This document shows positions 4,937-63,546 of a stretch of DNA of 64,000 bases, piece by piece. The position numbers and the translations under genes were made by a program. The first letter of the stretch is position 1; each line of letters opens with the position of its first letter. The notes beneath the pieces were generated by a model. It saw only the letters and a program-made list of their open reading frames with translations. It was not told the origin of the DNA and did not search any database. The DNA comes from Isoetes taiwanensis (Eukaryota > Streptophyta > Lycopodiopsida > Isoetales > Isoetaceae): assembly GCA_021234155.1 (NCBI GenBank), contig JAJEKV010000030.1, forward strand, positions 8,972,390 to 9,036,389, read 5' to 3'.

Positions 4937-5036
4937 AGATGCCAGACCTGAAGGACACAAAGATGTTAGATGTGAAGGGAATACGCCGGTATTCCAACCG
5001 GACCTAGTATTCTGGAATGGCATTGCCACGACCTCA

Positions 5037-5797
<761 letters not shown>

Positions 5798-6640: not shown

Positions 6641-6677
6641 TGACTCTGCATTGGCTTCCGGTCGAATTTGTGCAGTC

Positions 6678-6832
<155 letters not shown>

Positions 6833-7775: not shown

Positions 7776-8543
7776 GGCTAAAATCTGCCCTACCAACTCT
7801 TTGCAGACCATTGAACAGCAAATTACCTGCTTCAACGTTTCAATACATTGTGATGGTAGCTGTTGGCTAACGGGAATCTCCAAATGCAATCACATTTTTT
7901 TGCTGACTAAAAACTGTCGCTTATTTGCAGTTTAAAACTTGCGACACCTCTGATCATTAAAAGCCTTGCAATGTCAACTCCACGATCATTCTTTTGCATT
8001 AAGAGTGCACATTTTCCACTAGTCCTTGCCCTGTAAATGATGCATCTTGGTCCACACTAAAAATCGTTTAGTTAATGAAATATTAATGCAATGAATTCTA
8101 ACTCTAAAAGGGTTTCATGGCCGAGTGCCCACACCTATAATTAGATGTTGGCCCAAAGAATAATGCATAACTGCAAAAGTTGATGCACAAATTAGGATCA
8201 TCATCATTTAACATCCCGACTTTGTAGTAAAACATAAAGCATGAAGAAATTTAAAAGCAGACACCTTCCTATCTATGCAAACCTATCTATCCATGTGATG
8301 ATGCAGCTAATATCAACGAGGCATTCCAACAATGCGTTATGATAACCCAAGAACCACAAGGAAATACAGACACTCGCTGCTTCCTTTGCATTGAACAATA
8401 GGATACTGCAGTCCAAATACATGGTCTCAAAATGTTTATGCTCGTAAGAGTAAATGCCTTGCTTTCAAGTTGACAGATCCGTGTGATTTTGCAAACAGGG
8501 AAAATTAAAGAGCATACAGGGCAAAAAGAGAAATCTGAATATG
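7776..8543. repeat. Direct duplication, copy A
   Basis: This segment recurs in the same orientation at 8820-9656 with scattered substitutions and small indels. Shared blocks include CTTTGCAGACCATTGAACAG (7800-7820 and 8850-8870), GCGACACCTCTGATCA, and a closing block ending in GAGAAATCTGAATATG. Neither copy holds a convincing reading frame. Divergence suggests an old event. The sequence lies downstream of the minus-strand Helitron gene and could be element-derived. Confidence 0.85.
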
Positions 8544-8819
8544 CATCTATCATGCTATTCATGCCATCCTAAGCCGCTTGTTAGCAAAGCAGAGTATTTC
8601 TCCAAAGATATATTACATCTGTATGCATGCCACAAGTTCCTTACAATTGAGTACAAAGGGACAACGTGTGGTAAGTGTTTTGAGATGTTGAACTTACCTT
8701 TCTAGTTTCAAGCCTGTCACAAAATTTTCCTGCTGCATGGTCAAACATTGTTGTTTGGATCTTTATACCTGTGATGTAAATGCAGAACATTTAGAAGTTA
8801 TACTGGAGGAAGAGAAATC

Positions 8820-9656
8820 AGGCTGAAATCTGCCCTACCACCTCTTTGCAGACCATTGAACAGCGAATTATCTACTTCAACGTTTGAATACATTGTGATG
8901 GTGGCTTTTGGCTAACAGGAATCTGCAAATGTAATCACATTCATTTGCAGTCTAAAAACTTGTCGCTTGTTTGCACTCTAAAATTTGCGACACCTCTGAT
9001 CAATAAAAGCCCTGCAATGTCAACTCCACGATTATTCTCTTGCATTAAGAGTCAGTGACACAGAAATGGTTTTCTTAATGAAATATTCGTGCAATGAATT
9101 CTAACTCTTAAAGGGTTTCATGGCAGAGTGCCCAAACCTATAATTAGATGTTGGATTCATCATCGCAGCTCCAAATATTGTAACAAATCCAAAGAATAAT
9201 GCATATCTGCAAAAGTTGATGCACAAATTAGGATCATCATCAATTAGTAAAACATAAAACATGAAGAAATTTAAAAAACAGACATCTTCCTATGCAAACA
9301 AAACACCATAAGTGTGTCATACTCTGTTGCCCGAAATAGTCGAATATCCATGTGATGATGGAGCTAACATCAACGAGGCATTCTAACAATGCATTATGAG
9401 AACTCAAGAACCACAAGGAAATGCAGACACTCGCTGCTTCCCTTGCATTGAACAATAGCATATTGCAGTCCAAATACATGGTCTTAAGATGCTTATGCCC
9501 GTAAGAGTAAACGCCTCGCTTTCAGGTTGACAGATCCGTCTGATTTTGCAACCAAAACCAGGAGAAGTAAGTAGGTACATAAAGAGCATAGCAATCAAAA
9601 CGAATAATGTAGGTAAATTAAAGAGCATACAGAGCAAAAAGAGAAATCTGAATATG
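8820..9656. repeat. Direct duplication, copy B
   Basis: This is the second copy of the 7776-8543 segment, same orientation, with an extra insertion near 9290-9350 and another near 9550-9610. It runs into the 103-base tandem duplication at 9630. Confidence 0.85.
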
Positions 9657-9835
9657 AAAGAAGAGACTAATGTAAATGAAGAAGCTCACATCTTGGTTGG
9701 TTGCCTCAAATGAACACTTTCACACGGCGAAACAGAGCAAAAAGAGAAATCTGAATATGAAAGAAGAGACTAATGTAAATGAAGAAGCTCACATCTTGGT
9801 TGGTTGCCTCAAATGAACACTTTCACACGGCGAAC
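9630..9835. repeat. 103-base perfect tandem duplication
   Basis: Bases 9630-9732 are repeated at 9733-9835 with no differences that I can see. It starts CAGAGCAAAAAGAG and ends CACTTTCACACGGCGAA. The identity implies a recent event. Confidence 0.9.
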
Positions 9836-10027
9836 GAATATTGTCATACACCTTTAGTGATCCCATTCACGTCCCCTTTATTTTGATTGTCCAACTTTGA
9901 TAAGGATTTATTTGTATCAGAGGATACAGTCATCTCGTATTTTCCATTGCTGAAATAGTGATGTCAGTTCTAAACAAAGTACAATAAGTGAAGGGAGTAA
10001 ACTGCATGAAGGACCTTATCATAGCAT

Positions 10028-13000
10028 TCACGATAGCAGTAATTCTTTGAAGACGACATTGCGTGTCTTTACACAATCAGATGGGTTGTCATGCAAAATA
10101 AGCACGTCTTCTCTTCGACGTATGCGTGTAAGTGCCGTGTAGAGCTGTCCATGCGCAAATACATTGCTGCGGAGGTCTAATACGATCTTGTCTAATGTGA
10201 GACCAAGGCAACTGTGGAATGTTGTTGAGTAGGCTAATCTTAGCGGCAATTGCCGTCTATGAATTGTGAACGCCGCATTTTGGGGTTGGTGAAAGAAGTC
10301 AGATCTGGATATTGGATGAATGCAATCTGGAGATGTACTTTCTACTCCAAGGAGTCGAACAGTTACATATCTTTGGTATAGTTTGTGTATGACAACCCTA
10401 GCATTCTTTACCAGTCCTTTGTCTGCATCCAATAGTCTCATGATCCGGCATATTGCACCTTCCTTCAGATGGAGGATATGGGCTGGTAATGTGGGATGTT
10501 CATAACTATGAAGGAAATCATTTTCTGCATGTGCACTATTGTGGATTACACGATCATTTTCAGTTATGCTGTTATAACTGAAGTACTTTCTTCCGATGCC
10601 ATGAAGACGATCCAAGATTGTTTTGTTGAAAGCATCAACATTCACATTCAACGATGTTAGGAAGGCTCGAGATTCACATAATGCTGGTCTTGCCAACACT
10701 TCTGGAGGAAATAGAAACTCTCGAGCATCATCGATACTTGTTGTTGTCCTGAAAAGATCTAGAGTAACAGTATTAGATGCCCAATTTTCTCCTATCGACG
10801 CCACACATTGTATTAGCTCCAAATCTGATGCATTTCTTATGGGTTGGTTCAAACGATGAATGGAAAACGCAGACCATATCTCAGAAGACTTGACCGATGC
10901 ATTCCAAGTCGCATGCCTTCCTGAGCCCTGAACTATTGGAGCTATCTGGCGGAAATCACCAGCTGCTATGAAACACTTGCCGCCAAATGGCCGATTGTTC
11001 TGGCAAATTTGTTGAAGCAACATGTTTACTGCTTCAATGACAGCTTTGTTTGCCATCGGAAACTCATCCCAAATGATAACGTTTGCTTCTAAGAGCAATT
11101 TAGCTTTATTCGATGACGGAATGATTGTGGATTGCACACCGATATTGTTTTCAGTCACTGTGATTTGGAATAAGCAATGTGTTGTTTTGCCACCTGGATA
11201 TTGAAGCCCCGCTAATGCTGTCGTTCCACATGGTAGTACAATTCGTCTGTGTGCTCGGACATGAAAGCATACTGAATTTAGAAGGAATGTTTTCCCCATT
11301 CCAGCACCACCGTCAATGAATATTGGCCTTTCTGCCTCACCATTGTCTGCAATCATTGTCACAAGATCATAAATTTCTGCCTGCCTTTCATTCATTTGTG
11401 TACGCCTTTGCCTTGCATGTTCTAAGTATAGGTTATGTTGTGGAAATTTTCGTAATTCTTGCAACACCAGGTGTGAATGCATAGTGATGGGAGGGAGACC
11501 AAAATCTGTAACCGTTTTTCCATGTTGTTTGAGAACGCTTTCTATTGACACAAGTGCTTGCTGAACTGCAAGCGTGACATCTGAATCTTCACTAGCGTGG
11601 AAGTCATGTATGAGGTTGTCACGGAACTTGCTCCACATCTGTAACGCTGGCGCACCATCAAGTATCAAAAGCGTGAACAGAAAGCGTAGCTGTGATGGTG
11701 TTTGTAAAGATGCTATTGCCTCTTCCATGGTTATGATAGGTTCTGTTCCATCCTGGAGCAAGCCCATTGCTGTCAATGTCTCTTGATATGTATCATACAC
11801 GCGGCCATTGTATATCTTCAAATCATCCCATGTTCTTGCTGCCCTATGGAGGAGGAGTTGACGTAAATAAAAAATTTCACCTTCATGAGGCATCACGAGT
11901 CTTATTCTGCAAACAACATCCCTATTTCTTTGCTTACGAACCACATTCCTAGCCAATGCAGGTCGTGATAGCTCAAGATGTTCATTACTTGCTTGTTCAT
12001 CATTTTCTTCTCGCATGCTTGTTACAGGTATCAGTGTGTAGCCTTCAAAGTACTCAACATAACTTAGGTTACAGAATTCAGGAGCATCTGGTCTCAAGAA
12101 ATACCGGTCAAGAAGCGACGCAGTGTTTATTCTTCTACGTGAAACTCCTCTTCTTTCCTGAAGATGAACAGGAAGACATTTCACAGCGGGATGTTTCTCG
12201 GTGATATGGAAGCAAAATATACGCCAAGTTGCTTCAGTTGATGATAAGTATCTTGCATTCACGTAATCATCTATTTCATTCCTACTCGTTCCCTCTGTTT
12301 CAACACGATACTGTACTTTATCAACTCCCTTATAGATGTATGTGTATAAATACATGAATATTTGCACACTTGCAGCAATGTCAACATTTACATGGCAATC
12401 AAGTTGTGATAGCAAGAACGGAGAGTAAGATACAACCCACCTATCTTCTTCTGTGGTTCTACGGTACTGGACATAACCCTTTGAATTTAAGTGGGTTCTA
12501 GATGTTATTTCTCGAGGGTATCCCCAGCAACAAACTCCATCCTTTTGGCAGCGAGCGGAGTGACGGTGCATCATATACTTGCGCACTTTTTCTGCCAATT
12601 CACTGTCCGATGGAACCTGCGCCGAAATTAATCTATCCACCATCTCAAGCGGGATATCACGAGCAGTTTTCAGCACTATATGCGCATGCGGTAGACCACG
12701 CTTTTGAAACTCAACCACATGTATCATATACACAATGGGGCCAAAATAAGAACGCAAGAGAGATTTTGCATGCTGCAGACGTCCATGGAATGACCTTACT
12801 ACAACAGTCGGTATCTCAGCCGCTGTTTGACCAGGAGAGAGCATTGCTCGAATTTCAGGCCAATCTGGGTTTGTGGTCATTGTAACAAACAACGACGGTG
12901 GACCCTTTGCTCTAGCAAGTGCAAGTGCATCTCCAATCTGGACAGACGACCAACGACGACTTCCAAGGAAAGATGAAGGCAAAATGACCTTCTGACCTGG

Positions 13001-14665
13001 CTGCACATCCTCAGCAAAATCCTCTTCATCGTTCGTTTGCCTCCTAGAGTAACCATTTGTCCGCAAGAAATTTAGTCTTTCTTCCTCAACTCTAGAGTAC
13101 ATGTCGACAAGGTACTCACATGTCAGCCGTCCTAATTGAAGAAACCTGCTTTCATGTAACAACCGACATCTGTACCATTCTATCTGCGACATATTATAAT
13201 CATTATGTGGGGACCAGCCTAAGGTTCCATGTGGAAAGATCAGTGGGTATTGCAAAGGCTCATATTGCGGATCCAAAATGCTTATGTAGACTTCTTGTGA
13301 GTTTTCGTGCAACCAAAAGACAGCAGTCCTTGGGTTCAGAGTGACCGTGTTATTGGCATGCATAATGGCAGCAACTTCATCCATTGCTACCGTGCCATTT
13401 AGTGTCAACACTGCTGTTTGAAGCCGCATATCTTGCATTCTTCTTATCAATCCACAATATGGATTTATAGCTTCTAGCACGGAAGCTATGCATGCAACCC
13501 AAGTGAATGGAACTCTATATTGTTCTGCTCTTGGATATCTGTCATTACTATCGTGGACATACCAATGTAATGGCTGGTGTGGTTTTGAAACAGGCAACAG
13601 CTGATGGTATGTACGACCCATAAGTGCAATTGACGAAGGCATACTGAGCTCTATGAACTGTCCATCTGCACCAAGAGCCGTGAAGCAAAAGAGATGATTC
13701 ATCTTTCGACTATCGGCACTGAAACCTCGTTCACTATAAATCCGTGCAAGCTCATGATGTAATTCAGGCAATCGCGGCAGTATCCTCTTTCCATTATTAC
13801 AGCAAAAAGCATCATTCTCATTTATAAGCAGAGAGGTGTGACAATGCGGGCAAGCCCTGTTCCATGTAAACATGGCAGCAGTCGAACTTCGCTTACGCTG
13901 CATTCTACTAATTTGTCTTTCCCAATGTTCAACTGCAAAAGGCACTTGGCCCCTGCTCCTAATCCTGGCAGGGCAGGACAAAATTGGCAGTGTTTGAAAC
14001 GACTCAGATGTAGCACCAACCACATGTTCACCTCCTAGCTCACTAGACTCGCCATCCATCACAGCACTCATGGCACAGGCATTCTCAGGAGAGGCATGCG
14101 CTAACTGGATAGCTACTTGACTAGACTCACCTTGATCAGACTGCTGTATAATCCGATCATTATTATTGTAACCCTTTCTTCGCTTACACTCCCTCACAGC
14201 ATTCCTCATATCTTGCTTTCTCTCTTCAGGCAACCTAGCAAACCATTTACGTTTGCATTCATTACGCCGCAATGCCCTTGACATATCAGCCAAACTACAC
14301 GCCTCATTTACATCGCCGGCCTGCGCAATTTGAGCAGCAGTAGGAACTAAAGCGTTCGATGTAATTGCAGGCTGACTAGTACATGTTTCTATTGCGACTT
14401 GTTCACATTCATTACTAACTTCTCCATGCTCACCAGCAATAGATGCTACACCTGATGGCATTCCAGCCTCTAAATGCAATCTTAAATCATTTTGCTCGCA
14501 AAGTCTAGATTGGTTGTAGGCCACCATCCTCTCTCTCATGGCATTCTTCCTCTCTTCTGATAATCTAGCATACCAATTACGTTGATATTCATTCCGTTTC
14601 AACCTTTTCAGATCCTCGGCTGAATATTGCAGGTCTGGATCTAGCTCCTTCTTGCGTCTAGGCAT
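10028..14665 (-). CDS. Helitron Rep-helicase (autonomous-type transposase)
   Basis: An intact 1,545-codon frame encodes a rolling-circle transposase of the Helitron class. The N-terminus has two copies of a basic motif (RLKRNEYQRNWYARLSEERK near residue 21, ALRRNECKRKWFARLPEERK near 130), then a Cys/His zinc-finger-like block (CPHCHTS...CC). The HUH nuclease signature is HVVEFQKRGLPHAHIVL at about 649-665. The Tyr-rich strand YLYTYIYKGVD near 770 fits the catalytic tyrosine region. The Pif1/RecD-like helicase has Walker A GGAGMGKTFLL near 1117, Walker B IIWDEFPMANK near 1197 and a C-terminal motif ending in YTALTRIRRREDVLIL. By family knowledge it nicks and joins single strands at TC and CTRR element ends and unwinds DNA. 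The ATG at 14665 begins MPRRKKELDPD, and no stop interrupts the frame, so the protein may be functional. I could not locate convincing element termini. Confidence 0.95.
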   Translation of the reverse strand: MPRRKKELDPDLQYSAEDLKRLKRNEYQRNWYARLSEERKNAMRERMVAYNQSRLCEQNDLRLHLEAGMPSGVASIAGEHGEVSNECEQVAIETCTSQPAITSNALVPTAAQIAQAGDVNEACSLADMSRALRRNECKRKWFARLPEERKQDMRNAVRECKRRKGYNNNDRIIQQSDQGESSQVAIQLAHASPENACAMSAVMDGESSELGGEHVVGATSESFQTLPILSCPARIRSRGQVPFAVEHWERQISRMQRKRSSTAAMFTWNRACPHCHTSLLINENDAFCCNNGKRILPRLPELHHELARIYSERGFSADSRKMNHLFCFTALGADGQFIELSMPSSIALMGRTYHQLLPVSKPHQPLHWYVHDSNDRYPRAEQYRVPFTWVACIASVLEAINPYCGLIRRMQDMRLQTAVLTLNGTVAMDEVAAIMHANNTVTLNPRTAVFWLHENSQEVYISILDPQYEPLQYPLIFPHGTLGWSPHNDYNMSQIEWYRCRLLHESRFLQLGRLTCEYLVDMYSRVEEERLNFLRTNGYSRRQTNDEEDFAEDVQPGQKVILPSSFLGSRRWSSVQIGDALALARAKGPPSLFVTMTTNPDWPEIRAMLSPGQTAAEIPTVVVRSFHGRLQHAKSLLRSYFGPIVYMIHVVEFQKRGLPHAHIVLKTARDIPLEMVDRLISAQVPSDSELAEKVRKYMMHRHSARCQKDGVCCWGYPREITSRTHLNSKGYVQYRRTTEEDRWVVSYSPFLLSQLDCHVNVDIAASVQIFMYLYTYIYKGVDKVQYRVETEGTSRNEIDDYVNARYLSSTEATWRIFCFHITEKHPAVKCLPVHLQERRGVSRRRINTASLLDRYFLRPDAPEFCNLSYVEYFEGYTLIPVTSMREENDEQASNEHLELSRPALARNVVRKQRNRDVVCRIRLVMPHEGEIFYLRQLLLHRAARTWDDLKIYNGRVYDTYQETLTAMGLLQDGTEPIITMEEAIASLQTPSQLRFLFTLLILDGAPALQMWSKFRDNLIHDFHASEDSDVTLAVQQALVSIESVLKQHGKTVTDFGLPPITMHSHLVLQELRKFPQHNLYLEHARQRRTQMNERQAEIYDLVTMIADNGEAERPIFIDGGAGMGKTFLLNSVCFHVRAHRRIVLPCGTTALAGLQYPGGKTTHCLFQITVTENNIGVQSTIIPSSNKAKLLLEANVIIWDEFPMANKAVIEAVNMLLQQICQNNRPFGGKCFIAAGDFRQIAPIVQGSGRHATWNASVKSSEIWSAFSIHRLNQPIRNASDLELIQCVASIGENWASNTVTLDLFRTTTSIDDAREFLFPPEVLARPALCESRAFLTSLNVNVDAFNKTILDRLHGIGRKYFSYNSITENDRVIHNSAHAENDFLHSYEHPTLPAHILHLKEGAICRIMRLLDADKGLVKNARVVIHKLYQRYVTVRLLGVESTSPDCIHPISRSDFFHQPQNAAFTIHRRQLPLRLAYSTTFHSCLGLTLDKIVLDLRSNVFAHGQLYTALTRIRRREDVLILHDNPSDCVKTRNVVFKELLLS

Positions 14666-15436
14666 CTTAATTGCAGTTAACTAACGCCGAAGCAAGACAT
14701 TGCACCTAACAAAGACACCACAGATGCATCATGTCTTTTCTCTGATATGTCAATAGCACAAGCTATGATGCCTCTTGAACCCATCAAATAATTCAAAGGC
14801 ATAATTACATGCAGGGTATTAATCCATGAAGAAGAACGAGCAGTCGTAACAGGGTATCAATACCGGAACGCATATCCAAAAAAAAAAAAAACTTGCAACT
14901 CCTATTTCACTGTCGACTGCTCTATCCAACAATAAAAACACAAGGGAAGACCTTACCTCCTATCATTTTGCTCGCAAAGTCTAGATTGGTTGTAGGCCAC
15001 CATCCTCTCTCTCATGGCATTCTTCCTCTCTTCTGATAATCTAGCATACCAATTACGTTGATATTCATTCCGTTTCAACCTTTTCAGATCCTCGGCTGAA
15101 TATTGCAGGTCTGGATCTAGCTCCTTCTTGCGTCTAGGCATCTTAATTGCAGTTAACTAACGCCGAAGCAAGACATTGCACCTAACAAAGACACCACAGA
15201 TGCATCATGTCTTTTCTCTGATATGTCAATAGCACAAGCTATGATGCCTCTTGAACCCATCAAATAATTCAAAGGCATAATTACATGCAGGGTATTAATC
15301 CATGAAGAAGAACGAGCAGTCGTAACAGGGTATCAATACCGGAACGCATATCCAAAAAAAAAAAAACTTGCAACTCCTATTTCACTGTCGACTGCTCTAT
15401 CCAACAATAAAAACACAAGGGAAGACCTTACCTCCT
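14486..15436. repeat. Tandem duplication of the Helitron gene 5' end (476 + 475 bases)
   Basis: Bases 14486-14961 recur at 14962-15436 almost perfectly; the one difference I see is the length of an A run (14 versus 13). The unit holds the start codon and first 60 or so codons of the Rep-helicase plus about 300 upstream bases. The outer copy carries a second ATG at 15141 and a 62-codon frame that stops at 14953, where it meets the inner copy. The near identity implies a recent event. It duplicates whatever promoter lies in the 300-base leader. Confidence 0.92.
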
Positions 15437-22718: not shown

Positions 22719-23420
22719 CTACTTTTGAAGAGTGAACAAGGGTCTCATGTCAACTGTTTGATCAGTATTTGGGACAATGCTCTCAACCTGCACATTTCTA
22801 ATACTTGCATGTTCACCTTCACCAATATGCAACTTACTAACTCCCCTCCGCTTGCATTCTTCATTCCAAAGTTGAAATGCATTCTCATATGGGAAGTTAT
22901 AGAGGTCATAGTCACATGCATATACTCGCAACGTAGCATCCAAGTTTGAATCAAGTCTATTCCGGAGCTTATTCTTCACAAATGTCAACGTGGAAAAACA
23001 TCTTTCATCTTGGACACTACCTAAAACCATGCAAAGGCACAACTCTGCAAGCCTAAAATATTCAGAAATTGCTTCACGTAGCACAGCATTAGTGGCAAGC
23101 TTTTGCCATAAACGTGTGACAGCACCAATTTTCAACGGATCCTCTAAGTATGGAAACTGCCTATACATTGTATCCCCAAAGAGAGGAGCTTGAATGGTCA
23201 ATTTCTCATAATCTAAAATTCCATCAATGCTTCTTTGGCTAACCATTCTTTTACAACAAAAAAATTTCTCTATTACCTCCATCTTTGCTGCAAATTTTCT
23301 AAAAACAACCACTTCAGAGGTATCATTATTCCAAAAATGAGAAAAGACAACTCCAATTGCATCCAAAAGCTCATCTGGTGGAAAGCGAGATCGAAGCTCA
23401 TCTGATAAAGCATTTGCAAC

Positions 23421-23491
23421 CTATATACCAATAATGAATCAATGTAACTATATTGGTCAAGAAAGAAATGATAAAAATATGTCATACTCAC
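23421..23491 (-). other. 71-base intron in the hAT gene
   Basis: The donor CAG|GTGAGT follows codons for HEMKQ, and the acceptor TATATAG|GTT leads into VANALSDELRSRFPPDELL. Removing it joins two blocks in frame that are contiguous in hAT proteins. Length and borders are typical for plants. Confidence 0.85.
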
Positions 23492-24770
23492 CTGCTTCAT
23501 CTCATGTTGCACTTTCTCTATCACATAATTAAAATCTCCCATCTTGAAGTCTGAATTTTTAAGTCTTCGTCCTCGTCCAATTGGCTTCTTGACATTCAAT
23601 GCAATATATTTGTCTTTCACTTGTACACATAAAACTCCTCGCTCATCATATGTTAGAAAGCTTTCATTGGTTCCAATCTTCACCAATTTGCGCCATCTAG
23701 CAAATGCGTCATGTCTCTGAAAGCAATTTACCCATCGTCAACATATAATTGCTCAATTTCTGCTTGCATCACCTTCCTCGCTATATTGTATTCAGGAATA
23801 CATATATGCTCATCTTGCGACATCTGAATTAAATGATTGAGCTTAGAAAGCAAGGGTTGCAATGCAAATAATGTAAACAATGTTTCGCCATCTGTCAATA
23901 GACCATAAAGTTCATTTGCTTTAACCACAACATTTGCATCATCGTCCAAAGTGAAGTCCTCCACAACACCTAGCAAAGAAGCATACTCTTCACAAAGTCT
24001 TCGCACAGGTCTGTACATAGAAATCCATCTAGTAGCAGCATCCTTCAATATTTTCTTTCCACCCGTCACACCCTCTGCAAAAGCTTGGAAGGCTTGAAAT
24101 CTTTGTGGACTCTTACAAAAGAATTTGTATGCAGTTCTTACCAATAATTCAACCTTGCCCACTTGAGGAAAAACAGAAATAATTTTGTATGCCAAGTTGG
24201 TGCGATGGCTCATACAATGAATCACCTGTAAATAAGGGACAAGAACAGTCTGAATTCTCACTCCTAAACCGGTCCTCTTCCCTTGCATTACAGATGCACC
24301 ATCAGCTCCAAAACAAACCAACTTATTAGCACACTCAATCTCGTTCATGCCAGCAACATTAGATACATGTTCCAAGATAATATTAAATAATGTCTCAGCT
24401 GTGGAACTCATACCCAATTTGACAATACCAAGGAAATGTGATTTGCGTTGATAATTAACCACATTGTACAAATGCATGGCTGCCCAATTTGTATTATCCA
24501 CGGCAGTTACTTCATCCAAAGATAATGACAAAAAATCAGATGTTTGAAGAATTGAACGAAGCTGACCTTTTAAAGTTTGATTCATGAACTCCGCAAACTC
24601 CCATCCTGAAGGAATTGACCAATGATACAAAGGGCAAGCGGGTAACTCGTTAGAAAGAAAGAGCTCTCTGATTTCAGAATACTGTGTCATAGGTCTGCCA
24701 TTTTTAAGTAAGAAGAAAATAGCTTTCATTTGAATACACTTTGCTTTATACTCTTTGCTATCTTGTTCTG

Positions 24771-24784
24771 AGAATAAAACATGA
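24771..24784. repeat. Target-site duplication, left copy
   Basis: AGAATAAAACATGA, identical to 25812-25825 on the other side of the retroposon; the base before and the base after differ. Confidence 0.93.
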
Positions 24785-25780
24785 GTGCTAGGGCTCTGTG
24801 GGCAATATGTAAGCTTGTCCTTTGAGTTTTGGAGAACCGATATTTATACTTCAGTTGTGTGAGTGTTTAAGCTTTGTTCTGTTTCTGTTGCACTCAATGC
24901 AACATGAAGGCCGACTGCACCCATTGCAGTTTCAGGTTCATATTAGGCAACTCTTCAGCTGTTTTGTATGATATGGAAACTGGTGCCAAGGCTTATGGTT
25001 TGCTTGTTAAGTATTGCCTACAGGCCAAACAGACACAGCAGTAAGGTTATGCCTTCAGAACGTGAAGTGGGTATAATGGTGTGGCCTGAAGTAGGTTTCT
25101 TGGACTGCAAGAATAGGCACAGCCCCTTGAGCTGCAGATCTAGTGGGCAGTGTTTGTACATTGGTGGTTTGATGGAAGCATTTAGGCAGCACCATGTGTC
25201 ATCTTTTACACTGGAATGCATATCTAAATCTCCTAGTGTCATCCTTCCCCTTTCCCAGCAAGGGGGGGCTGGGATCTATGGGTGAGAACAAGAATGGACA
25301 ATGCAGGTAAGGAAGGGATCTAACGTGAAAGCTTTGGGCGGGAGACCATAGCTTTCTTATTCTTCCGAAAGCACCATGTAGGTAGTTGTGGCCTATGTTG
25401 GTTGATGGAGGGGCAACATGGAGAGCGATTTGACCACCCTCTATAGGGGTAGGCTTGCAGGGTGTATTGCATAGTTGGAAGACAGAGTTCTCTCTTATAG
25501 TACAGAAATGCAGATGGTATCCCAAGCCAAGTTAACGCGAGGAATGATGATTGCTCCCATACGACCTCCAACTACTAGCATCTTTCGGTGGTGGAGCTAC
25601 AGATGGACACAGTTACAGTTATTAGAGGGATCTCGAGCCGTATCATTGGAAAAGAAGGTTGTAATCTTTAGACCTCAATCTTGGAGTAAAATGGTGATGT
25701 GATAATTCTGCCTATCAGGCCTATTGTGGAGCCTATGTATTTACTTATTATTATCAATAAAAATATAAATATCTTGCCTT

Positions 25781-43591: not shown

Positions 43592-45910
43592 CTATACCCC
43601 CTTTGCTATTCCCTTGGCATCATCAGCACAGAGGTTTGACATCTGCACATATCCAGAAGCGGAGAGAGGATCTAAATGGAGCACTTGATTGAAGCAATGT
43701 TTTCCTAAGTCCACATTGCCATGCATCCGGCACGCATTAAGCAGAGATTTCCAGCCAGAAAGGCTAGACATTGCTGAGACTTGAAGCATGTCCTCCGCTT
43801 CTCTAAGGGCACCAGCACGAGCCAAAAGATCAACCATGCAAATAGAAGGATCAACGTCTACCATGGTACCATATTGTTCCCTCATATGTTCAAAATACCA
43901 ATTGCTTTTGTCTATGAGACCTGCCCGACCACATGCAAGAAGGAGGCATTGGAAAGCAATTATATCAGGTTTGATGCCCTCCTCTTGCATCCTTTCAAAA
44001 CAACTCAGCGCAAGAAGACCATCTCCGTGCTGAGCATACCCTGCCACCATTGCACTCCAGGAGAATACATTTCGATTTGGCATTCTGCTAAAAACTAGCT
44101 CCGACTCTTTAAGACTACCACACTTGGCATACATGTCAATAAGAGAAGTCCCCAGGGAAACATCCGAGTGCAGGGAAAGGTTTAAGATATGGTCATGAAT
44201 AAGACGACCTTGTTGCACAGCTCCTATGCTTCCACATGCTTTGAGAATGCTCAAAAAAGTGACTTTATCTGCAGCAAGCCCCTCATCTTGCATCTTCTCA
44301 TAGCAATCTATGGCCATAATACCCTTGTTATGCTGCGAGTACCCTGCAATCATTGAATTCCATGATACAATGCTTTTATTTGGCAGATTATCAAATACTT
44401 TGCATGCCTCCTCAAAGCTGCCAATTTTAGCATATGTATCAACAAGTGTGTTTTCTAGAAAAAGATCACATTCAATCTCTTCTTCTAGGATCTGACTATG
44501 AATAAGCCTGCTCTTTGCGATGGCTCCTATACAACAACATGCCTTCAAAACACTTAAAAATATGACTTCATTTGCCTTTAAGCCTTCTTGTTCCATGTCA
44601 TCAAAGTAGTCCAGAGCAAGAATTCCTTCACCATGCTGAGCATAACCTGAAATTATAATACCCCAAGACAGTACATCTCGCTTTGATAACTTGGCAAAGA
44701 TACTAGATGACTCCTCCAGACTACCACATCTAGCATACATGTCAACAAGAGCGCTACCAATGATGATATTACAATTAAATCCGTGTTTTAAGATCTGATC
44801 ATGAAGAAACCTTCCATGTTCCAGGGCTCCGATGCTACCACATGCTTTTAAGACACTTGGGAATATATATTTATCTGGCATTATATTCTCCACTTGCATC
44901 TTTTCAAAACAGTCTAGAGCAAGAATTCCTGCACCTTGCAGAGCATATCCAGTGATCATTACACCCCGGGATATCACATCTCGTACTGGCATTGCTTCAA
45001 AGACTATTCGTGATTCAACCAAACAACTAGATTTAATGTACATATCAATCAGAGCATTGCCCAGAGCAACCTCCCACTCAAGCCCATATTTGATAATTAG
45101 AGCATGAATTAATCTCCCCTGCTCTATGGCATGCCTCATACTGCATGCTTTTAATACACTCAAAAATATAACTTTATTTGGTTGTATTCTCCCATGCTGC
45201 ATGCTGTGGAAGCAGTCCCACACAAGAGAAGCTTCATCATGCTGGACATATCCTGCGATCATTGCGCCCCAGGAGACCACATCGTGCTGAGGTAGTTTGT
45301 TAAAAAGTTCAGAGGATTCCTCCAAGCTACCACACTTGGCATACATGTCAACAAGAGTATTGCCCAAAATAATGTCAATTGCAATTCCATTTTCAATGAT
45401 TTGGTAATGCACCTGCCTTCCCTGTCCAAGATTAGATGTTTGGATGCATGCTTTCAGTATAGCAAGGTATAGGAATCGGTTACAGTCTACACTTGAGAGT
45501 TGCATTTTGAGGTAGAAAGCCAGTGCTGTCTTGCTTTGTCCTGAACTGACGTTGGCAGAAATAACTGAGATCCATGTGTATATAGTGGGCTGTAAGATCC
45601 TGTGAAATGCCTGATTTGCTTCAGATAAGCATCCACAAGAAGAAAAAAGGCGCACTAGTCGATCACCAAGGACATCAATAGAATCTAGGTGTCTTTGGAT
45701 CATAAGGACCTGTACTCGTCTACCACATTCTAGGTCGTTTCTTCTAGTGCATTCCTGTAGAATCAAGTATGCATTATTTCTAGACAATGGAATACCATAC
45801 CGTTCTATAATGTCAAGAGCCTCTGTTAACCGTCCCTCTTTACAAAATATGCCCAAATGATCAAAAGCCCTGGTAATGGTACAATACGCAATGTTACCAT
45901 AAAATGGCAT
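43592..45910 (-). CDS. PLS-type pentatricopeptide repeat protein
   Basis: A 772-codon intact frame from ATG 45910 encodes a helical-repeat RNA-binding protein, by family usually an organellar RNA editing or processing factor. About six P-L-S triads of roughly 101 residues are visible. Each has the sequence LIDMYAKCGSL, then VSWxxMIAGYxQHG, then FLSVLKACGSIGA and QGRLIHDQIL. The last repeats are followed by CMVDLLARAGALREAEDML and an incomplete E-like stretch ending YVQMSNLCADDAKGIAKGV. There is no E2, E+ or DYW domain, so any editing activity would need a partner. The N-terminus (MPFYGNIAYCTITRAFDHL) has no clear transit peptide. A donor CAG|GTAAGA (about 45943) and acceptor TTACCAG (about 45870) upstream allow an alternative start in a spliced 5' exon joining at RAFDHL. 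Confidence 0.93.
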   Translation of the reverse strand: MPFYGNIAYCTITRAFDHLGIFCKEGRLTEALDIIERYGIPLSRNNAYLILQECTRRNDLECGRRVQVLMIQRHLDSIDVLGDRLVRLFSSCGCLSEANQAFHRILQPTIYTWISVISANVSSGQSKTALAFYLKMQLSSVDCNRFLYLAILKACIQTSNLGQGRQVHYQIIENGIAIDIILGNTLVDMYAKCGSLEESSELFNKLPQHDVVSWGAMIAGYVQHDEASLVWDCFHSMQHGRIQPNKVIFLSVLKACSMRHAIEQGRLIHALIIKYGLEWEVALGNALIDMYIKSSCLVESRIVFEAMPVRDVISRGVMITGYALQGAGILALDCFEKMQVENIMPDKYIFPSVLKACGSIGALEHGRFLHDQILKHGFNCNIIIGSALVDMYARCGSLEESSSIFAKLSKRDVLSWGIIISGYAQHGEGILALDYFDDMEQEGLKANEVIFLSVLKACCCIGAIAKSRLIHSQILEEEIECDLFLENTLVDTYAKIGSFEEACKVFDNLPNKSIVSWNSMIAGYSQHNKGIMAIDCYEKMQDEGLAADKVTFLSILKACGSIGAVQQGRLIHDHILNLSLHSDVSLGTSLIDMYAKCGSLKESELVFSRMPNRNVFSWSAMVAGYAQHGDGLLALSCFERMQEEGIKPDIIAFQCLLLACGRAGLIDKSNWYFEHMREQYGTMVDVDPSICMVDLLARAGALREAEDMLQVSAMSSLSGWKSLLNACRMHGNVDLGKHCFNQVLHLDPLSASGYVQMSNLCADDAKGIAKGV

Positions 45911-46610
45911 GCAAGCATATAACAGCTCAGCAAATATCTTACCTGCAGCGGTCGCCAGCAGCTATAATAGTTAACTGAAAAATTCAATGAAAGAATGAGA
46001 GAAATGCAACACATGAAAAGATAGAAGTGTCCTCCTTACATTGCAGAAGAAGCGCCTTGCTGACATCAGAGAGATGCAATGGCTTCAGCCATAGCCCGTC
46101 TATGCAAAGCTCCTCGGACAACTAAAAAATGTGCCATGAGAGCCCAGGACAAAATCTATGTTTGCAGCTGCATCCTGCTAGACTGAAAAAATACAACTCC
46201 TCTTTAGAACACCTGGCGAGAATTCCTTAAGCTAAAAAAATCTATTTTCTTGGAGGGGTGATCGTAGTTTACGAAAGCCAGTTCAAAGCTAAGCACTTCA
46301 GTTCAGGACAAAGCAGGACAGCCCACATGATCAAGGTATGTTGAAATCCAAATACTACTATGTGGGATGCTGTGCACAAAAACATGCCTCACGTAACGAC
46401 AATAACATTACCTTTTGTGAAGTGAGGTCTTAACAAGATGATGGTAAGACGATGGTTTTGTGAAGTGAGGTCTAACAAGATGATGGTAGGATGGCAATAA
46501 AAAAACAATTGTTAGGAGACTTGCACTAGGCCTATCTGGGATGCAGTCACCTACTCTGTTCCAAATGAGATTGAGACGTCGATATAGTAGCGCCACAAAT
46601 CTCCCAAGAA
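45911..46610. other. 5' flank of the PPR gene
   Basis: It contains the possible 5' exon and intron described under the PPR gene. A direct repeat, TTTTGTGAAGTGAGGTCT, occurs at about 46412 and 46453. Nothing else is supported. Confidence 0.4.
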
Positions 46611-55639: not shown

Positions 55640-56640
55640 ATGAGTGCTTGCTCATCACCACGTACCCAAGCAAGAAGCCCGTGCTTCCGGCAAGTGGATT
55701 TTACCTCCAAGGAGTTTACGTTTGGGTTACGAGGTGATCCAAGCCAAAGACCTCCGTGATAAACATCACAGAGGCCCACATACCCAACCTAGAGATGGTT
55801 ATGAGCGAGGTATGGGGTGAAGCTCAAAAAGCGGCGAGGATTCAAGGAAGGGAGAATTAACGCATGGAAAGATGATTTTTTAAATATTATGAATTGGTTT
55901 ATGGCAAGAAAACAGGTTACAAACCATTATATTTCTACCTATTTTGCGAGCATTTGCTCTTCACTTGAAGGGATGGCTTGTTGATTGGATGGGCGTGGCT
56001 AGGACCGGGCCAAAGATCTTGCCAAAACCCTCATTTCGAGGCGTTCTGAGGACCCTACAACGGGTAAATCCTCAACTATCAAAGCAGGACATCGTATTGC
56101 GTGAGAATATTAGAGCCACGGGTTATTCTAGATCAGATGTTGACACAATAAAGCGATTACTTAAGCATGGGTTGGAGGAGAAAACTAACCTATTGAATGA
56201 AGTAGAAGCATTGGAAGAAAGAAGGAGGGATGCATTGAAGGTCATCACCGGATTGAGGGTAGAAAGGATATGCTATCAGAAGATCTGCAGCAGTCTGCGC
56301 CGAGAAAATAGATGAGACAAAACAGAATTTGACAAATTGTCCCGGGATCCCGCTGGAAATCAAGTTATGTTCGGTGTGTTGAAGTACAAGTTGGAAGACT
56401 TGGTTATGAGTAGACATGATAAAGAGCAAAGCACTCTTCTAAGCTAGACATTGGTTTGCGGGAAGCAACTAAAGAAATTGAAAGGCATGAAATCTCAATT
56501 GAACAAGCAAAGGAAAAACTTAATTGCATTGAATTGGTTCAGCAAAGGCATTCACGATTTTGGATTTCATGGGGAGAGCGGGACCTATTGTTTGCGCACC
56601 CGAGGCCCCACCGTAGGAGCTACTTCTATAGAGCGAGTTC
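55640..56640 (+). pseudogene. Decayed coiled-coil gene, left part
   Basis: One frame reads PSKKPVLPASGFYLQGVYVW from about 55669, then ITEAHIPNLEMVMSEVWGEA and YYELVYGKKTGYKPLYFYLF to about 55950, broken by TGA and TAA codons. A shifted frame (from 55944) continues KILPKPSFRGVLRTLQRVN, then RENIRATGYSRSDVDTIKRL and NEVEALEERRRDALKVITGL to the TGA at about 56313. A third frame near 56450 reads EATKEIERHEISIEQAKEKL. The Glu/Lys/Arg heptad pattern indicates a coiled coil. The basic-helical piece at 62.6-63.5 kb on the same strand, beyond the Helitron, may be the right half of the same gene. Family unknown; could be host-derived or an element gene. Confidence 0.5.
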
Positions 56641-56983
56641 ATCACATTAGGTTCATGTACATTTGTTGTGGCCAAGGCTTTGGCAAAACTGGTTTGTTGC
56701 TGCTAGCTCCATGCAGAGATGCTTATTGCCTCTTCTGCTTGTGTTATCTGGTCTATGAAAGACAGAATTGCATAAAAGGTTGCATCTGGGATGAGGGCAT
56801 TCGAATTCAGCTTGGTTTCCCTGCTGTGAAAGGTATGCATTGCTCTCAACTAATTTAAACTTATATTTCACTTAATTCATATTTGTTATTGTAATCTGCA
56901 TAGTTCTACATGTATGGCTTTCAGTGCATTGCTATTCCTTGTACATGTATAACTTTTAGTGTACATCTGTAAGCAGAGGTACA
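56641..56983. other. Left flank of the Helitron
   Basis: Probably an intron of the surrounding decayed gene. It contains GTACAT words (56940-56983) like those at 62276-62430 beyond the Helitron, which fits the two flanks having once been adjacent. Confidence 0.45.
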
Positions 56984-59449
56984 TCTATATATAATAATAA
57001 AAGCAAAATGTAATGTGTGCAGAGCATCTCGGCCGTTGATTTTGTTGTGAAAACTCTTATTATAGACCGTCAGATTTAAGTAGTTTTCTTTTCCTCTCTC
57101 TGGAACTCTTACGGTTTACCCTCGGCAGCCATCCCTCCTTCCAGAGGAGATTCAATTCTTCTGTGATATTTGTTGCCGAAGATTCAGTTCTTCATGTTGT
57201 TTTGTGTGCCGACTGCATAATGTCGGTTGTTCGGTGGTTGCATTGCCACTTTGTCCAGAGCAATGTTCGGCCTTCTTTATGCTAGAGCCATTCCCTTATT
57301 TTTGCCTTTTTGCTGCGTTCTTTCTGTGTCGGTTCTCATCTGCCTTATAAAAAGCTCTACTCCGGCGCCCCAGTACCTCTCCATTGTTTCTCCTTTCATC
57401 TAATCCTGTAGCCTCCATCTTTTCTTGTACCAGATTTAGCCGCTTGGCCCTTTGGGTCCTTTTTAGCAAAGTTTCTTTGCCCTTGGCAACCAAAACTTGA
57501 TTCTTTGGATTTCGATTTGTCCGGTGCCTAGAATTCCAATTTTCAAAGGAAAAGCTTTGGAGCTGCTTAGACACAACGAATTGTAGAGAGTACCAAGGGA
57601 GATATGGAATTGCGTGATTAGATATGCTTCTTTCTCATTGGATAAGGTTTGTAGTGATGAAGAACTCTGCTTTGAGAAAAAGTATTCCCTCCTTTCTTTT
57701 AAGTTATCTCTCCAGCAATAGCAGTAGTAGAAAGAAAGGTTGTTATATCATACTTTGCAGTTTTAAATATGAGTGAATCATGATTATTAAACTTTAGGGC
57801 TTTGTACAATGCAGCCCTAGATGGAACAATGCAGGCATTTATCTCTATCTTGCATGCCTTTCTTTTCATCTCTCTAAAAGTCTCAATTGTGATCTCTAGC
57901 TTTGCAGTTCTTACATTGTATCATAGTTTGTTGTTTGGAGCTTCATGGGCGTGACACGGAAGAAGAGGGAAGTGTAGATGATCGAGAAGTTAACGATGGA
58001 GGTATGCTATTCTATCTATATGTTATTTTTCTCGAAGTTGCATCTAAGAATTTTTCTATATTTAGATACATGATATGCATTATGAAAGTGTGGATCACGA
58101 CCTGTGCAACTATCATGATGGTTTTGTTTTAAAGCTCGAAGCCTGCAAAAACTCCAAACTCGAGCTCCGATGTTTGATGGAAAAAATACCAAATGCATGC
58201 GGCATCGACCATTTCATTCTAGGGTTTTTACCTCAGAACATTAGGCAGCCTTGGAGAATATGAAGGTTCAATGTGATGCCCGATTCCTTCATCAACAAGG
58301 TCGATGCGAATATCGGATTTTGTGCAGAGGGTTGTTGCCTCTTTCGGGCGGAGGCATGCTTCCCCATGAGGTTACCTTTTATGTAAACATGTTTTCGCGG
58401 TAGACAGGGATTTTCCTTTTGGTTTAAATTGAAATTCATCTATATTGTCCGCTTAACTACGGGAAGTGGATATTGCATCGTTGAGAATGTGTTTCATCTT
58501 CGCCGACATTATTTCGGTTGCCGGATGATAGTTCTATATCTCCTTCACCCTTTCAGCGATATTGATGTCCTTCCTCGGTGAAAGCTTGCAAAGAATGCAT
58601 GATAGTGATAAAGAATCAAATTTTGATTGCCATTTTGCCATAGACGTTGCCATGAAATCTCCCTCACAATTTTCCTCGCATTGTTTACGCTAAATTGATT
58701 AACGAAATGAAAAGAAGAATTAATTTGGCGCAATAATAATCTGCATTTGTCCATGCTTATTATAAGTGCCTATGCGATAGCAATTATTGTATCTGAAATA
58801 AGGCCTCTTGGCGGGCTTTTTGCTTGGCACCTTTTTTGGCTTAGCACGAGCGGGGCGTGTGAAATAAAATATATATTAACCTGGAAAGAACAATTCACCA
58901 TGATATATTTATAAAATATTGAGTTGTCCCTGTAACCAATATCATAAAGCTCTCGGTATTTGTAATGAATGTAAGTTGAAGTGCTAATTTCATCCGTGGT
59001 AAAATGAATGGCGCCCTGCAGGGCAATTGCTATCGGGTTGTGAAGAACTTAGAGAGAGAAAACGGCAAGTTAAATATGCATTTGGGAATGAAAAAATGCA
59101 GCAAAGTGGACATTGATTAAAGGTGATAATAAGAAAACATATTCATATCTAAAACTGCAAACCCGTTACTCAATGTGTCATAATCACATATTTTTGCGGG
59201 TTCTATCACGATGCCTTTTTAAGTACCAAACAAAGCCACTATCGGAAGGGAAAGAGTTTGAAGTATTTGCTCTTCCAAATTTGGCGGTAGAAGATTATCT
59301 TCCAATGCTTATTGGTCTTCTTGTTAAAGGTATGTATTTAAAATCGAAGTTTTCCAATTTCGTCAATTCTCTGCCCAACTTAGAGCACTGCTAAAGCTCT
59401 TCTCTATACTTGGGTCCCATAGGCCAGTTGGTCTCCGTGGACGATAAAA

Positions 59450-59476
59450 TCATATTCTATTCTATTCTATTCTATT
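59450..59476. repeat. (TATTC)n microsatellite
   Basis: About five units of ATTCT inside the Helitron. Confidence 0.9.
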
Positions 59477-62044
59477 TGATGTGGAATTAGCATCTAATAG
59501 TGAAGAAAGGGTAAGAGGGAATAATGTCTCGGCTTGACTTTGAGAGTGGTTAAAAGGCGAGGTCATTACCGTTTTAATGTGTATTTCTTCTGTGCAAATT
59601 AAACTAAGGTGAATAGGCATTTGAGTACCTTTTAAGATCCATCACCTTATCGCATTATCGTCTTCTTATTCTTATTCCAAGATAGCGAGGCATACTAGGC
59701 AAGCTGATCAATGGGATAGTTGAAGTTTGAGTACTAATACCTTTGTTCCACATAGAGCTCTTTTACGCATTTTTACTATCCCTCTCGTCCTTCCTTGAGA
59801 AAACTTTGATTCCTTTAGGTAATGCGGTCTTGTATCGGGTTTATCACAAAGCAAGGTGGTTCATGCATTTTGAAATACATTATTGGTTGCATGTGTTTGG
59901 AGCAAAGCATTGTAGATTGTAATTTCTGATCACGGAGCTCTATTTTGGTCTCAAAGGCTTGCCTCTGTATGCCATGTTCTCAAATTGCCTGCTCTCTCAC
60001 CCACAATGGTACTTATATCTATCCCATGTGCTTTTTTTCTTTTATGAGTTCAATTTTCAAACTCCAATATCAACATCGCGTGTTATACAAAACCCGGGGT
60101 AATATTGTTGTTGTTGCACATTTTAACATTGTCATTGTCTAACATTGTCCAAATGCACTTTGAAAAATATTTGAGGAATTTAAGTCTTTCACATCTTTGG
60201 ATTGTTTGAGCGAATTTGTTATCCTATTGCTTGACATTAAAAACTTGGTTCTTGGATCTTGCGGATTAAGATATAAGATGGATACTAATCGAGAACATTG
60301 ATGGGTTGAAATGCCAATCTTGGGTGAAGTCAGGGTGGCCTTTGCATCGGTTCCAACCATGCCTTCAAGGCCTTGCTAGGTATATGCCATGGACTTTTTT
60401 GTGCTCCGGAGGCAATATTCACGTGTCGATATAGTATATGCTTGCACACTTGTATGTTTAGGTTCTTGTCTACGCCATTAGTCTCTTTCGGAAGGATTTT
60501 GTTGTTCAACACGTTTATGCCTTAATTTTGGTTGCGAGGAGGTGACAAAGTCAAGAAATGGAGCGTAACGTGGAACTTCTGATGAAATGCAAATTTTGTT
60601 ATTATTTTGTCGGTTTTATCACGGATTGCCATTTCCCTTTTCACGTTATTCTTTACCACAATAAAGCAAAGGAGACTATGTCACTATGGGGTGATTGCGA
60701 GAAATGAGTGAGGTCACGAGAAAATGTAACATTTATCCATTGTTTGCCAAAATCCAAGGAATGAGCAAGCAAGAAGCCTTGTACAAGCGATCTGCATCAG
60801 CATCCGACTTGATGATTTATAACAAAGACATTCAACATATAAATACAAGTGACAAGCGGTGATAGCAAGAAGTCTTGAAGCCTTGAGCCTTATCCGGCGA
60901 TCGCATCGACACCCAACTTGATGATTTGTAATAAAAGACATTCAACGTACCAATACATGTGACAAGTAATTTGAGCGGTAAAAATTAAATGTAAGTTTTT
61001 GAACTCATCTAACGGCATGCATCATACATTGATGCCGACTTGTCATAACGTTGAGCGACAATTTCTAAAGAATATAACTTTTTGGCTCAACTAGAGAAAC
61101 AAAGATGCTCATATGAAGGTTATTTTTTTGACATAATGGTGAAACTGACAGCTTTATATTAAAATTTGATTTACATTAAAAAAGCTTCAAACATCTTCTC
61201 TAGAATGTAGACGCTCACCGCTCCCACATACAAAAACTAAACAAATTACATCCATTTAAAAGCGTTTTTGAATTGATTTCAATGATCATCTACCTTTGAA
61301 ACTTCATGTTAATGGTTTCATGATATATGCATGTCAATATAGAGCTGGTTGCAAGCAATTTAAAAAATAACTTTTATTTTTTACCTTTTCTACCAAAACA
61401 AGCTATAGCTATGGGAGATTCTGTTAAGACTATGTTTAATTTTGTTCTTGAAGAGTTGATATTAGAGAACTTCTTCAAACCCTCACAACTCAACACCCAA
61501 AATTCATCAGATCAAGTCTCAAGGGAAGAGTTACAAATCCAGAGAGCATTTGTAGGTTTTACCCATATACTTCCTATGAATATTGGTCAAAAGCTAAAAA
61601 TTCCATCAACATGTCACACCCACTAAGGAAACACCATTATTGTTATTATAAACATTAGATCAGATGCAGAAAAGAACAACAAAAACCTAGACTGCCATCG
61701 ATAAGAAATCATTGCCAAAATGCCGACCTTCAGTGATTGCAATTGAATATATGAAAATGACGATGTTCTATGATAAGAGTGGAACTCACTATGGACAAAG
61801 TGCCAAGAGTTCTAACAAGAACTAATTAAATATGAGAGCCTTGCGAGACAATAGAAGTCGACACACAAATTTAACCCCATGATGAAATGATTGATATGAA
61901 CATTCAAAAACTATATAAGTTGTATTCAAAGTTTAACCTCAATAAATAATACATTTTATGCCCAACTAAGGAACGACCATATATGTCCAACTAGATGCTA
62001 TCAACCATAACCCTACCAATTTTGGAATTTAATCCCGACGAAAA

Positions 62045-62061
62045 GCCCAGCAACGCTGGGC
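62045..62061 (+). other. Helitron 3' terminal hairpin
   Basis: A perfect seven-base-pair stem (GCCCAGC/GCTGGGC) with loop AAC, eight bases before the terminal T; the spacing to CTAG is typical of Helitron ends, where it acts as the replication stop signal. Confidence 0.9.
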
Positions 62062-62275
62062 ACTTTTTCTAGTAGGCATATATTTGCTTGTTTATTGATG
62101 CTTTTATTTTTGAGCTTGGACTGCAGTTGTATCAGTTGTACATGTCTCTAATGGAGTCTACATCTGCAAATAGATGTACATGCATTTATTTTTAGAGTGC
62201 ATCTGTAGATGGATTCATAAGTATGTGCATTTTTTACATATATGTGCTTTTTTTTGGGCATAGATCTACATTCCC

Positions 62276-62430
62276 TAACTGGATACCTGGGTACATCTGG
62301 GTACATCAGTGTACATCTGGGTACACTGATGTACCTTTATGTACATTGAGGAACATGTACATGTACATTTGGCTATAGTTAAATGTAGTTACTTACATTT
62401 GGTACATTTTATGTACATGAAATGTACATG
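62276..62430. repeat. GTACAT-rich tract with a 15-base palindrome
   Basis: GTACAT or TGTACA words occur about a dozen times. GGTACATCAGTGTAC (62300-62314) and its exact reverse complement (62321-62335) form a hairpin with a six-base loop. Confidence 0.85.
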
Positions 62431-62599
62431 CTTGGCAGAATGTACCAGATATTTCTCATTAGTTCTGTTTTCATGTTCTTTTATGTCTATTGAAATTTAG
62501 ATCATTTGTTTGTTTTGCGGATGAGGTCGTTCCTATCGAAGCGGCTTTAATGGCTGATGTTCTTGAGCCATCTGCATCGACTCTCTTTCTGATTTTTTG

Positions 62600-63546
62600 A
62601 GCATAATAAGCGGGCCGAATCACGTAGACCCTCTACCTTCCAGCTCCAGATCACCAATGACATTTACGGTGCGGTAATAGAACAATGCACAGCGGTGCCT
62701 CCTCGAACATGGCAAAGTGAAGTTGAGGAAATTGAGAGGATGGCACTTGAGAAAGCTAAAGCGATTGCGGTGCAGACCCTTCAATGGCTGGCACGCAACG
62801 AAACTCCTTCATCACCAAGTGCTAAATTAGTAATTGGAGAAGCCAAGAAAGATCGGCTTACGTCACCGGCATCATCTGCGGGTCCAGTTCACGGACACAT
62901 TATGAAGAAGCTACAAAGGAATCAGATCCAGATTTTATCCCGGGGAGATACCGGGGAAGAGGAAGGCGAGTTGGTAGTTGAGTCCACTCCAAAGAGGAGG
63001 CAAAAGAATCTTTGGTGATGGCACTCCAAGAGGAAAAAGCAGGCAAAATCTCCAGAAGAAAAAAAATGTCCTCTCAAAAGAAAATCTCGAGACAAAAAGT
63101 GCCACCACCACCTAGAAAGAGGTATGTCCAAGATGAACTAATTTTTGTTAAACATCTCAGATTTATGATAATTAACCACATTTTTTTTTTTGTACATAGG
63201 ACACGATCACAAGGCGTGAAGGAAGGCGATCCCGATCCTTCCGAGGTCAGGGCAGGAAGAGGAAGAGGATGAGGATCTACAAGCAAAATATTGATGTGAT
63301 AACAAATAAGGTGCGGCAGTCCACGAGAAGATCTTTGAAAGCGGTGATGAATTTACAAGGTGAGTAATATACAATTGATTACAATAGATATATTCTTTTG
63401 CTAATGTTGTTGTTTCCTTGTGCGGTTTAGTGAACCGGACCGAAAAGGTTGGTTCCATTCCTCCTTATAGGGACTGTCCTCCTAAGCACGCACCCTCTAT
63501 CTTTCAAAGTGATGTTGACGAAGTTCTGCTGGAAGGCTGGACTTGA
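62600..63546 (+). pseudogene. Multi-exon basic/helical gene, right part
   Basis: The first exon reads FFEHNKRAESRRPSTFQLQI, then TNDIYGAVIEQCTAVPPRTW and EVEEIERMALEKAKAIAVQT from about 62599. It then changes frame near 62910-63010. Intron 63122-63199 (AGAG|GTATGT ... TACATAG|G) joins it to an exon with basic motifs (RREGRRSRSFRGQGRKRKR then YKQNIDVITNKVRQST). Intron 63360-63430 (CAAG|GTGAGT ... GGTTTAG|TG) joins this to VNRTEKVGSIPPYRDC, ending at a stop at 63544-63546. The introns are canonical, but the first exon needs at least one frame change, and intron phase at 63121 does not fit the long basic frame. It may be damaged, or the true splice sites differ. Family unknown. Confidence 0.5.

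Follow-up and report, generated by a model that had tools for sequence, protein, structure and literature searches.

A complete 5,089-bp Helitron with exactly read ends in the Isoetes taiwanensis genome, and evidence for captured DNA in its interior

The stretch of the Isoetes taiwanensis genome analysed here, 64,000 nucleotides at C1035:8972390-9036389 (hereafter the window), carries on its plus strand a complete Helitron of 5,089 bp at positions 56984-62072, the ends of which were read at the exact base. We have very little doubt that this is a non-autonomous element with a passenger interior, which a RepHel protein acting in trans would presumably move; its assignment is based on the two ends, the A and T that flank them and the existence of siblings with both ends. 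With respect to its borders, it is an ordinary, well-bordered Helitron of a known kind. Its 5' terminus (56984-57013, plus strand; TCTATATATAATAATAAAAGCAAAATGTAA) follows a host A at 56983, after which the element starts as TCTATATATAATAATAAAAGC with TC at 56984, as read from the letters themselves and from the borders of siblings. At the other end, a hairpin with a perfect 7-bp stem and a 3-nt loop (62045-62061, plus strand; GCCCAGC-AAC-GCTGGGC; fold of -12.3 kcal/mol) ends 11 nt before the end of the element and is followed by seven bases, the terminal CTAG (62069-62072, plus strand; likewise read from the letters and from sibling 3' ends) and the host T at 62073. The canonical plant Helitron has a hairpin of 16-20 bp located 10-15 nt from the 3' end. 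The hairpin found here spans 17 nt and lies 11 nt from the end, and the canonical termini, TC after a host A and CTRR before a host T, are both present.

The possibility that the resemblance to a Helitron is due to chance, the start being simply AT-rich and the hairpin with CTAG having nothing to do with it, was weighed against random sequences and against the rest of the genome. The 5' end is indeed AT-rich, and a looser hairpin scan of the window returned 11 rows, that is, ten hairpin plus CTRR-T rows besides the 62045-62061 hairpin (two of these ten describe one and the same hairpin), and for this reason the hairpin alone is insufficient. However, A followed by TCTATATATAATAAT occurred in none of 40 first-order Markov sequences as long as the window and once in the real window, and the same figures, none in 40 against one, were obtained for a comparable hairpin followed by CTRR-T. 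Moreover, the 29-base 3' terminus including the T has 696 + 670 = 1,366 genomic matches at no more than one mismatch, a figure that cannot be taken as the exact number of ends followed by T because the permitted mismatch may fall on the T, whereas the reversed-pattern control gave 0 and 0. Chance resemblance is, finally, refuted by the siblings, as blastn alignments between the window copy and its siblings end at, or no more than 12 bp from, the termini of the element, and its probability is practically negligible. The earlier claim of a complete Helitron with base-precise ends was thus borne out, with TC, hairpin and CTAG at the positions given above and sibling alignments in agreement. An Rfam scan of 56000-63000 returned nothing at gathering score.

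Siblings were collected from a genome sequence of 1,658,258,908 bases (1.66 Gb) in 1,110 pieces; the published assembly is given as 1658.30 Mb in 204 scaffolds and 909 contigs in the part of that paper available to us (PMC8566536). In the search with the first 200 bases of the element the best 40 of 363 candidates were scored, giving 40 matches with that of the window included, and in the search with the last 200 bases the best 40 of 748 candidates were scored, giving 46 matches. From the 39 other 5'-end places listed, 20 siblings were taken, namely the best 21 minus C1018:21335648, which was left out as a match without the first 32 bases. The earlier note had proposed to look for copies with both ends, and these exist: six of the 20 share the same interior and both ends with the window copy (L010, L011, L012, L015, L016 and L017; in L012 the first six bases of the element are replaced), and a further five have only the ends in common with it (L019, L022, L023, L024 and L025). 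Another four belong to a rearranged head-to-tail cluster on C1034 (L013, L014, L018 and L021), and in the remaining five (L009, L020, L026, L027 and L028) the stretch read shows the 5' end but no 3' end that could be recognised. In pairwise comparison, the window copy and its six full siblings are 92.8-97.05% identical over aligned columns, gap columns excluded. The hairpin is altered in L016, L018 and L021, and one of its bases is missing in L013. Across subfamilies, approximately 219-279 bp on the left and 42-84 bp on the right are kept, and the interiors differ.

The borders of the siblings and the flanks of one of them describe the insertion itself. At the 5' border, 15 of the 20 siblings read A|TC and the other five read CTAG|TATAATAAT, being joined to the CTAG of another Helitron; in L009, L010, L017 and L025 several starts are possible because the flank itself is TCTA. 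All 15 siblings with a 3' end read show CTAG|T, the T being provided by a neighbouring Helitron in four of them. When the flanks of sibling L015 were joined A to T (122 nt), they matched at all 40 scored places (461 candidates) with 98% identity; 39 of these matches extend over the full 122 bases without any net change in length, and one covers 120. The target of L015 is therefore an abundant dispersed repeat in which A stands directly before T when the site is empty, and the insertion of L015 between A and T was precise and without target duplication. For the window copy, the flanks A (56983) and T (62073) were read and the empty-site evidence is that of L015; hence the earlier proposal of A-T insertion without duplication holds for L015, with which the flanks of the window copy are consistent.

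The same observations bear on whether the copies arose by segmental duplication and not by transposition. Such an origin would be in line with the alignment of L015 with L016 over about 10 kb at 88% identity and with the cluster at C1034:20.94-21.00 Mb, which is a rearranged array. It is contradicted for the window copy, L010, L011, L015 and L017, the flanks of which are all different, and the site of L015 is empty at each of the scored places; duplication as the general source of the copies is therefore very improbable, and transposition is the reading retained here.

The earlier note had also stated that no Rep-helicase lies inside the element, and the searches agree with this: tblastn of the RepHel protein encoded in the window found no match in the element, Pfam searches of its stop-to-stop frames of at least 70 aa, covering 10 of the 13, gave no hit above the cut-off (two weak hits had E values of 0.009 and 0.04), and five sibling frames likewise gave none above the cut-off. 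A RepHel protein is encoded elsewhere in the window, by an open frame at 10028-14680 on the minus strand (Helitron_like_N, 2.8e-37; PIF1, 4.1e-42), and among the best 30 of 5,344 candidates scored in the genome there are 12 RepHel places, that of the window included, which extend from residue 299 or earlier to residue 1548 or later with no internal stop. The RepHel of the window was considered as the partner of the family and rejected, as the family 3' end is missing from the 4.1 kb downstream of it, where the best match comprised 15 of 28 bases. This 3' end was absent from both regions read, namely downstream of the window RepHel and of L049. A stricter scan of the minus strand at 5000-10100 found no hairpin with CTRR-T, and a looser scan downstream of the window RepHel and in L049 found hairpins before CTRR, none with T next. 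No RepHel place lay within 15 kb of family 5' or 3' ends among the matches listed, the lists of ends being partial, and no RepHel-coding element with the ends of the family was found among the places examined.

Following what is described for wheat in the available portions of PMC13286980 and general background on Helitrons, we propose that a RepHel made elsewhere in the genome would nick at the 5' TC and would unwind one strand, with the 3' hairpin and CTAG acting as the presumed stop signal. A single-stranded or circular copy would then be joined between the A and the T of a new site without duplication, the interior being carried along as putative passenger DNA. Both the action of RepHel in trans and rolling-circle copying of the window Helitron are proposed here by analogy.

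Evidence on the passenger DNA comes from positions 58120-59105 (plus strand; 986 bp), which are collinear with C1061:9590276-9594560 in three pieces of 85, 87 and 91% identity and partly similar to loci on C985, C1045, C1059 and C1082. The search for outside relatives (query 57290-59380; best 40 of 83 candidates scored) recovered the family and the C1061 match. The C1061 locus additionally harbours an insert of 436 bp, which has inverted ends and is flanked by a 9-bp repeat, as well as a further 2.9 kb. To the left of position 58120, the C985, C1045 and C1082 loci align with C1061 over 326, 374 and 115 bp, respectively, while the Helitron departs; the C1059 locus aligns with C1061 there for only about 30 bp. 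Since the outside loci stay alike where the Helitron departs, 58120 is taken as a sharp capture boundary on the left. These comparisons support the view that the interior of the window Helitron contains DNA probably captured from outside the family, by a route that we infer. The closest outside locus, that of C1061, of which 4.8 kb around the match were read, may itself lie within a repeat. Moreover, the C1082 locus carries a degraded Helitron-like 5' end, and the segment may for this reason have passed between Helitrons. According to a comparison of the coordinates of the matches listed, a part of the segment, 58520-58730 (plus strand), recurs at another six places. At four of them, a Helitron 3' end that matches lies 3.3-7.7 kb farther downstream in the same strand; these four represent a third related subfamily.

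The alternative for the interior is that an autonomous Helitron lost RepHel by internal deletion, so that what remains is old Helitron sequence. Positions 59221-59331, known only from family copies (12 of 12 genomic matches) and as yet a part with no outside source, speak for it, as do the presence of 58520-58730 in other Helitrons and the Helitron-like 5' end of the C1082 relative. Nevertheless, the 58120-59105 segment has matches at loci outside the family, neither tblastn nor Pfam revealed any RepHel similarity in the element, and the resemblance of C985, C1045 and C1082 to C1061 on the side of the boundary where the Helitron differs is what capture predicts. Taking both sides together, we regard a deletion derivative as rather improbable and prefer a passenger interior.

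As regards the nature of the captured DNA, PPR-like sequence follows within 70 bp after the segment in the C1045 locus (L046), with a tblastn value of 2.5e-12 obtained with the window-encoded PPR protein in a small database of six loci; a Pfam search of one L046 frame downstream returned nothing, and the by-eye PPR reading is kept as a suggestion. The captured DNA may thus be gene-associated at most, and a gene as its source is only suggested. The earlier proposal of captured DNA accordingly stands with regard to the segment, which matches outside loci and has a left boundary, and does not stand with regard to its argument from size. A length of 5.1 kb is ordinary and a weak argument for capture, because non-autonomous HelA elements of maize range from 1,502 to 35,310 bp according to the portions of PMC2267711 available to us.

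Other parts of the interior have separate histories. A nested insertion of 63 bp with a tail of TTCTA repeats (59408-59470, plus strand) is absent from all seven siblings read across it, and pieces similar to it occur in the flanks of five other loci. An internal direct repeat at 60787-60966 (plus strand) consists of two 70-bp copies, 60787-60856 and 60897-60966, which are 83% identical. The exon-like piece at 59221-59331 was considered as a captured exon and rejected, since no donor was found and its genome matches are limited to family copies; a solved-structure match to its peptide was sought and none was found. The sister subfamily, i.e., the siblings that share only the ends with the window element, carries decayed PPR-gene sequence: Pfam PPR matches were obtained in three of eight frames from L023 and L024 (best PPR_2, 2.5e-19), and a window-encoded PPR protein matched by tblastn in five of five sister copies and in none of seven copies of the window subfamily.

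The least expected detail of the analysis was that two subfamilies occupy the identical nucleotide of one dispersed repeat: L015 and L016 of the window subfamily and L019 of the sister subfamily are inserted at this point in different copies of the repeat. The flanks of L015/L016 and L019 are 91.3-96.6% alike, their 5' 225 bases agree in 92% of aligned columns with 36-40 gap columns, their 3' 84 bases are 70-79% identical, and their interiors gave no alignment. Outside the element, the sequence common to L015 and L019 is restricted to about 290 bp upstream and 1.3 kb downstream. Two independent insertions fit these observations best. An alternative reading is that the whole interior was swapped between Helitrons via the shared ends, for which there is room because the 5' ends are fairly similar. 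Furthermore, resident 5' ends were entered at TCTATA^TATAAT at least two times by different Helitron ends (L012 and the C1034 cluster). Whether Helitrons of this genome choose their sites by more than the AT dinucleotide is a tentative suggestion, which we hold to be possible and somewhat doubtful.

A rolling-circle concatemer was considered as the source of the head-to-tail copies and rejected, since it leads one to expect CTAG|TC joints and the joints found are CTAG|TATAATAAT. As these lie 6 nt inside the neighbouring element, nested insertion fits them better. In L041 and L042 the upstream copies have lost their 5' ends, where TCTATA to the left of the inserted copy was predicted, and no TCTATAT start was found in the 1.5 kb upstream of L012.

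As far as the available parts of the respective reports describe them, several known systems can be likened to the Isoetes element. The HelA/Hel1 elements of maize share with it a TC start of similar type, a 3' hairpin followed by CTAG and A/T host flanks, their size range covers 5 kb, and head-to-tail neighbours and vacant sites are known; the likeness is one of description, and the joints differ, being CTAG|TC in maize and CTAG|TATAATAAT in Isoetes (PMC2267711). Wheat Xuan1, a non-autonomous member of the Xuan-Feng family, similarly has TC...CTAG ends, AT insertion and no transposase coding, and for the Xuan-Feng hairpin near the 3' end a stem of 6 nt is given, at a distance of 11 nt upstream from the right terminal sequence (PMC13286980). 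However, for Xuan-Feng an autonomous partner (Feng8) and mobility are reported (PMC13286980), whereas the Isoetes element is known from sequence. Helraiser of bats differs in being an animal element and is likened by description as well (PMC5876387, PMC4778049). Our literature search found no paper joining Isoetes taiwanensis and Helitron, the texts containing both Isoetes and Helitron dealing, by title, with a bromeliad and with chromatin, and the word helitron is absent from the main text of the Isoetes genome paper in the form available to us (PMC8566536).

Taken as a whole, these results define, for a large lycophyte Helitron family, the ends to the exact base together with an empty site and a captured segment, and the subfamilies, which combine a single pair of ends with swapped interiors, are useful for the study of DNA uptake by Helitrons. 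As the insertion point is shared, target choice can be tested by counts of filled versus empty sites, and, if site choice beyond the AT dinucleotide were true, it would mean integration hot spots guided by sequence or structure.

Family copies of the window Helitron at C1034:20.94-21.00 Mb (L013, L014, L018, L021 and L041) form a rearranged head-to-tail cluster, in which the joints between copies read CTAG, the family's 3' terminal bases, directly followed by TATAATAAT, and an internal deletion of element positions 1197-4153 (approximately) is common to the copies. At C1034:24.31 Mb, too, a joint connects these element positions. Moreover, in the sibling locus L012 the 3' end of a different Helitron (about 1475-1510; hairpin GCCCAGCAACGCTGGGC, then ACCATTACTAG) meets the resident 5' end at the same internal point as in the C1034 cluster.

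Within the window Helitron, 63 bp at 59408-59470 with a tail of TTCTA repeats are present in this copy and in none of the seven siblings read across the site, and similar pieces were found in the flanks of L009, L014, L017, L018 and L024; the insertion could be a truncated short retroelement. At locus L043 on C1061, positions 719-1154 hold an insert that resembles a Mutator-type MITE, with inverted ends GGGCGCCCGTATATCGAGTCCGGGA and flanked by the 9-bp repeat GATCTTGCA.

Elsewhere in the window, a 789-aa frame for a PPR-repeat protein lies at 43592-45961 (-) (Pfam PPR, 4.9e-66). The region 22719-24843 (-) holds one frame of 233 aa and another of 371 aa; both appeared transposase-like as judged by eye, but neither gave a Pfam match. 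Furthermore, an open RepHel frame of 1,550 aa (10028-14680 (-); Pfam Helitron_like_N and PIF1) is accompanied by an upstream repeat of its first 67 codons (14956-15156, 98.5% identical) and, on its 3' side, by a perfect tandem repeat of two 103-bp units (9629-9834). This frame belongs to another, potentially autonomous, Helitron.
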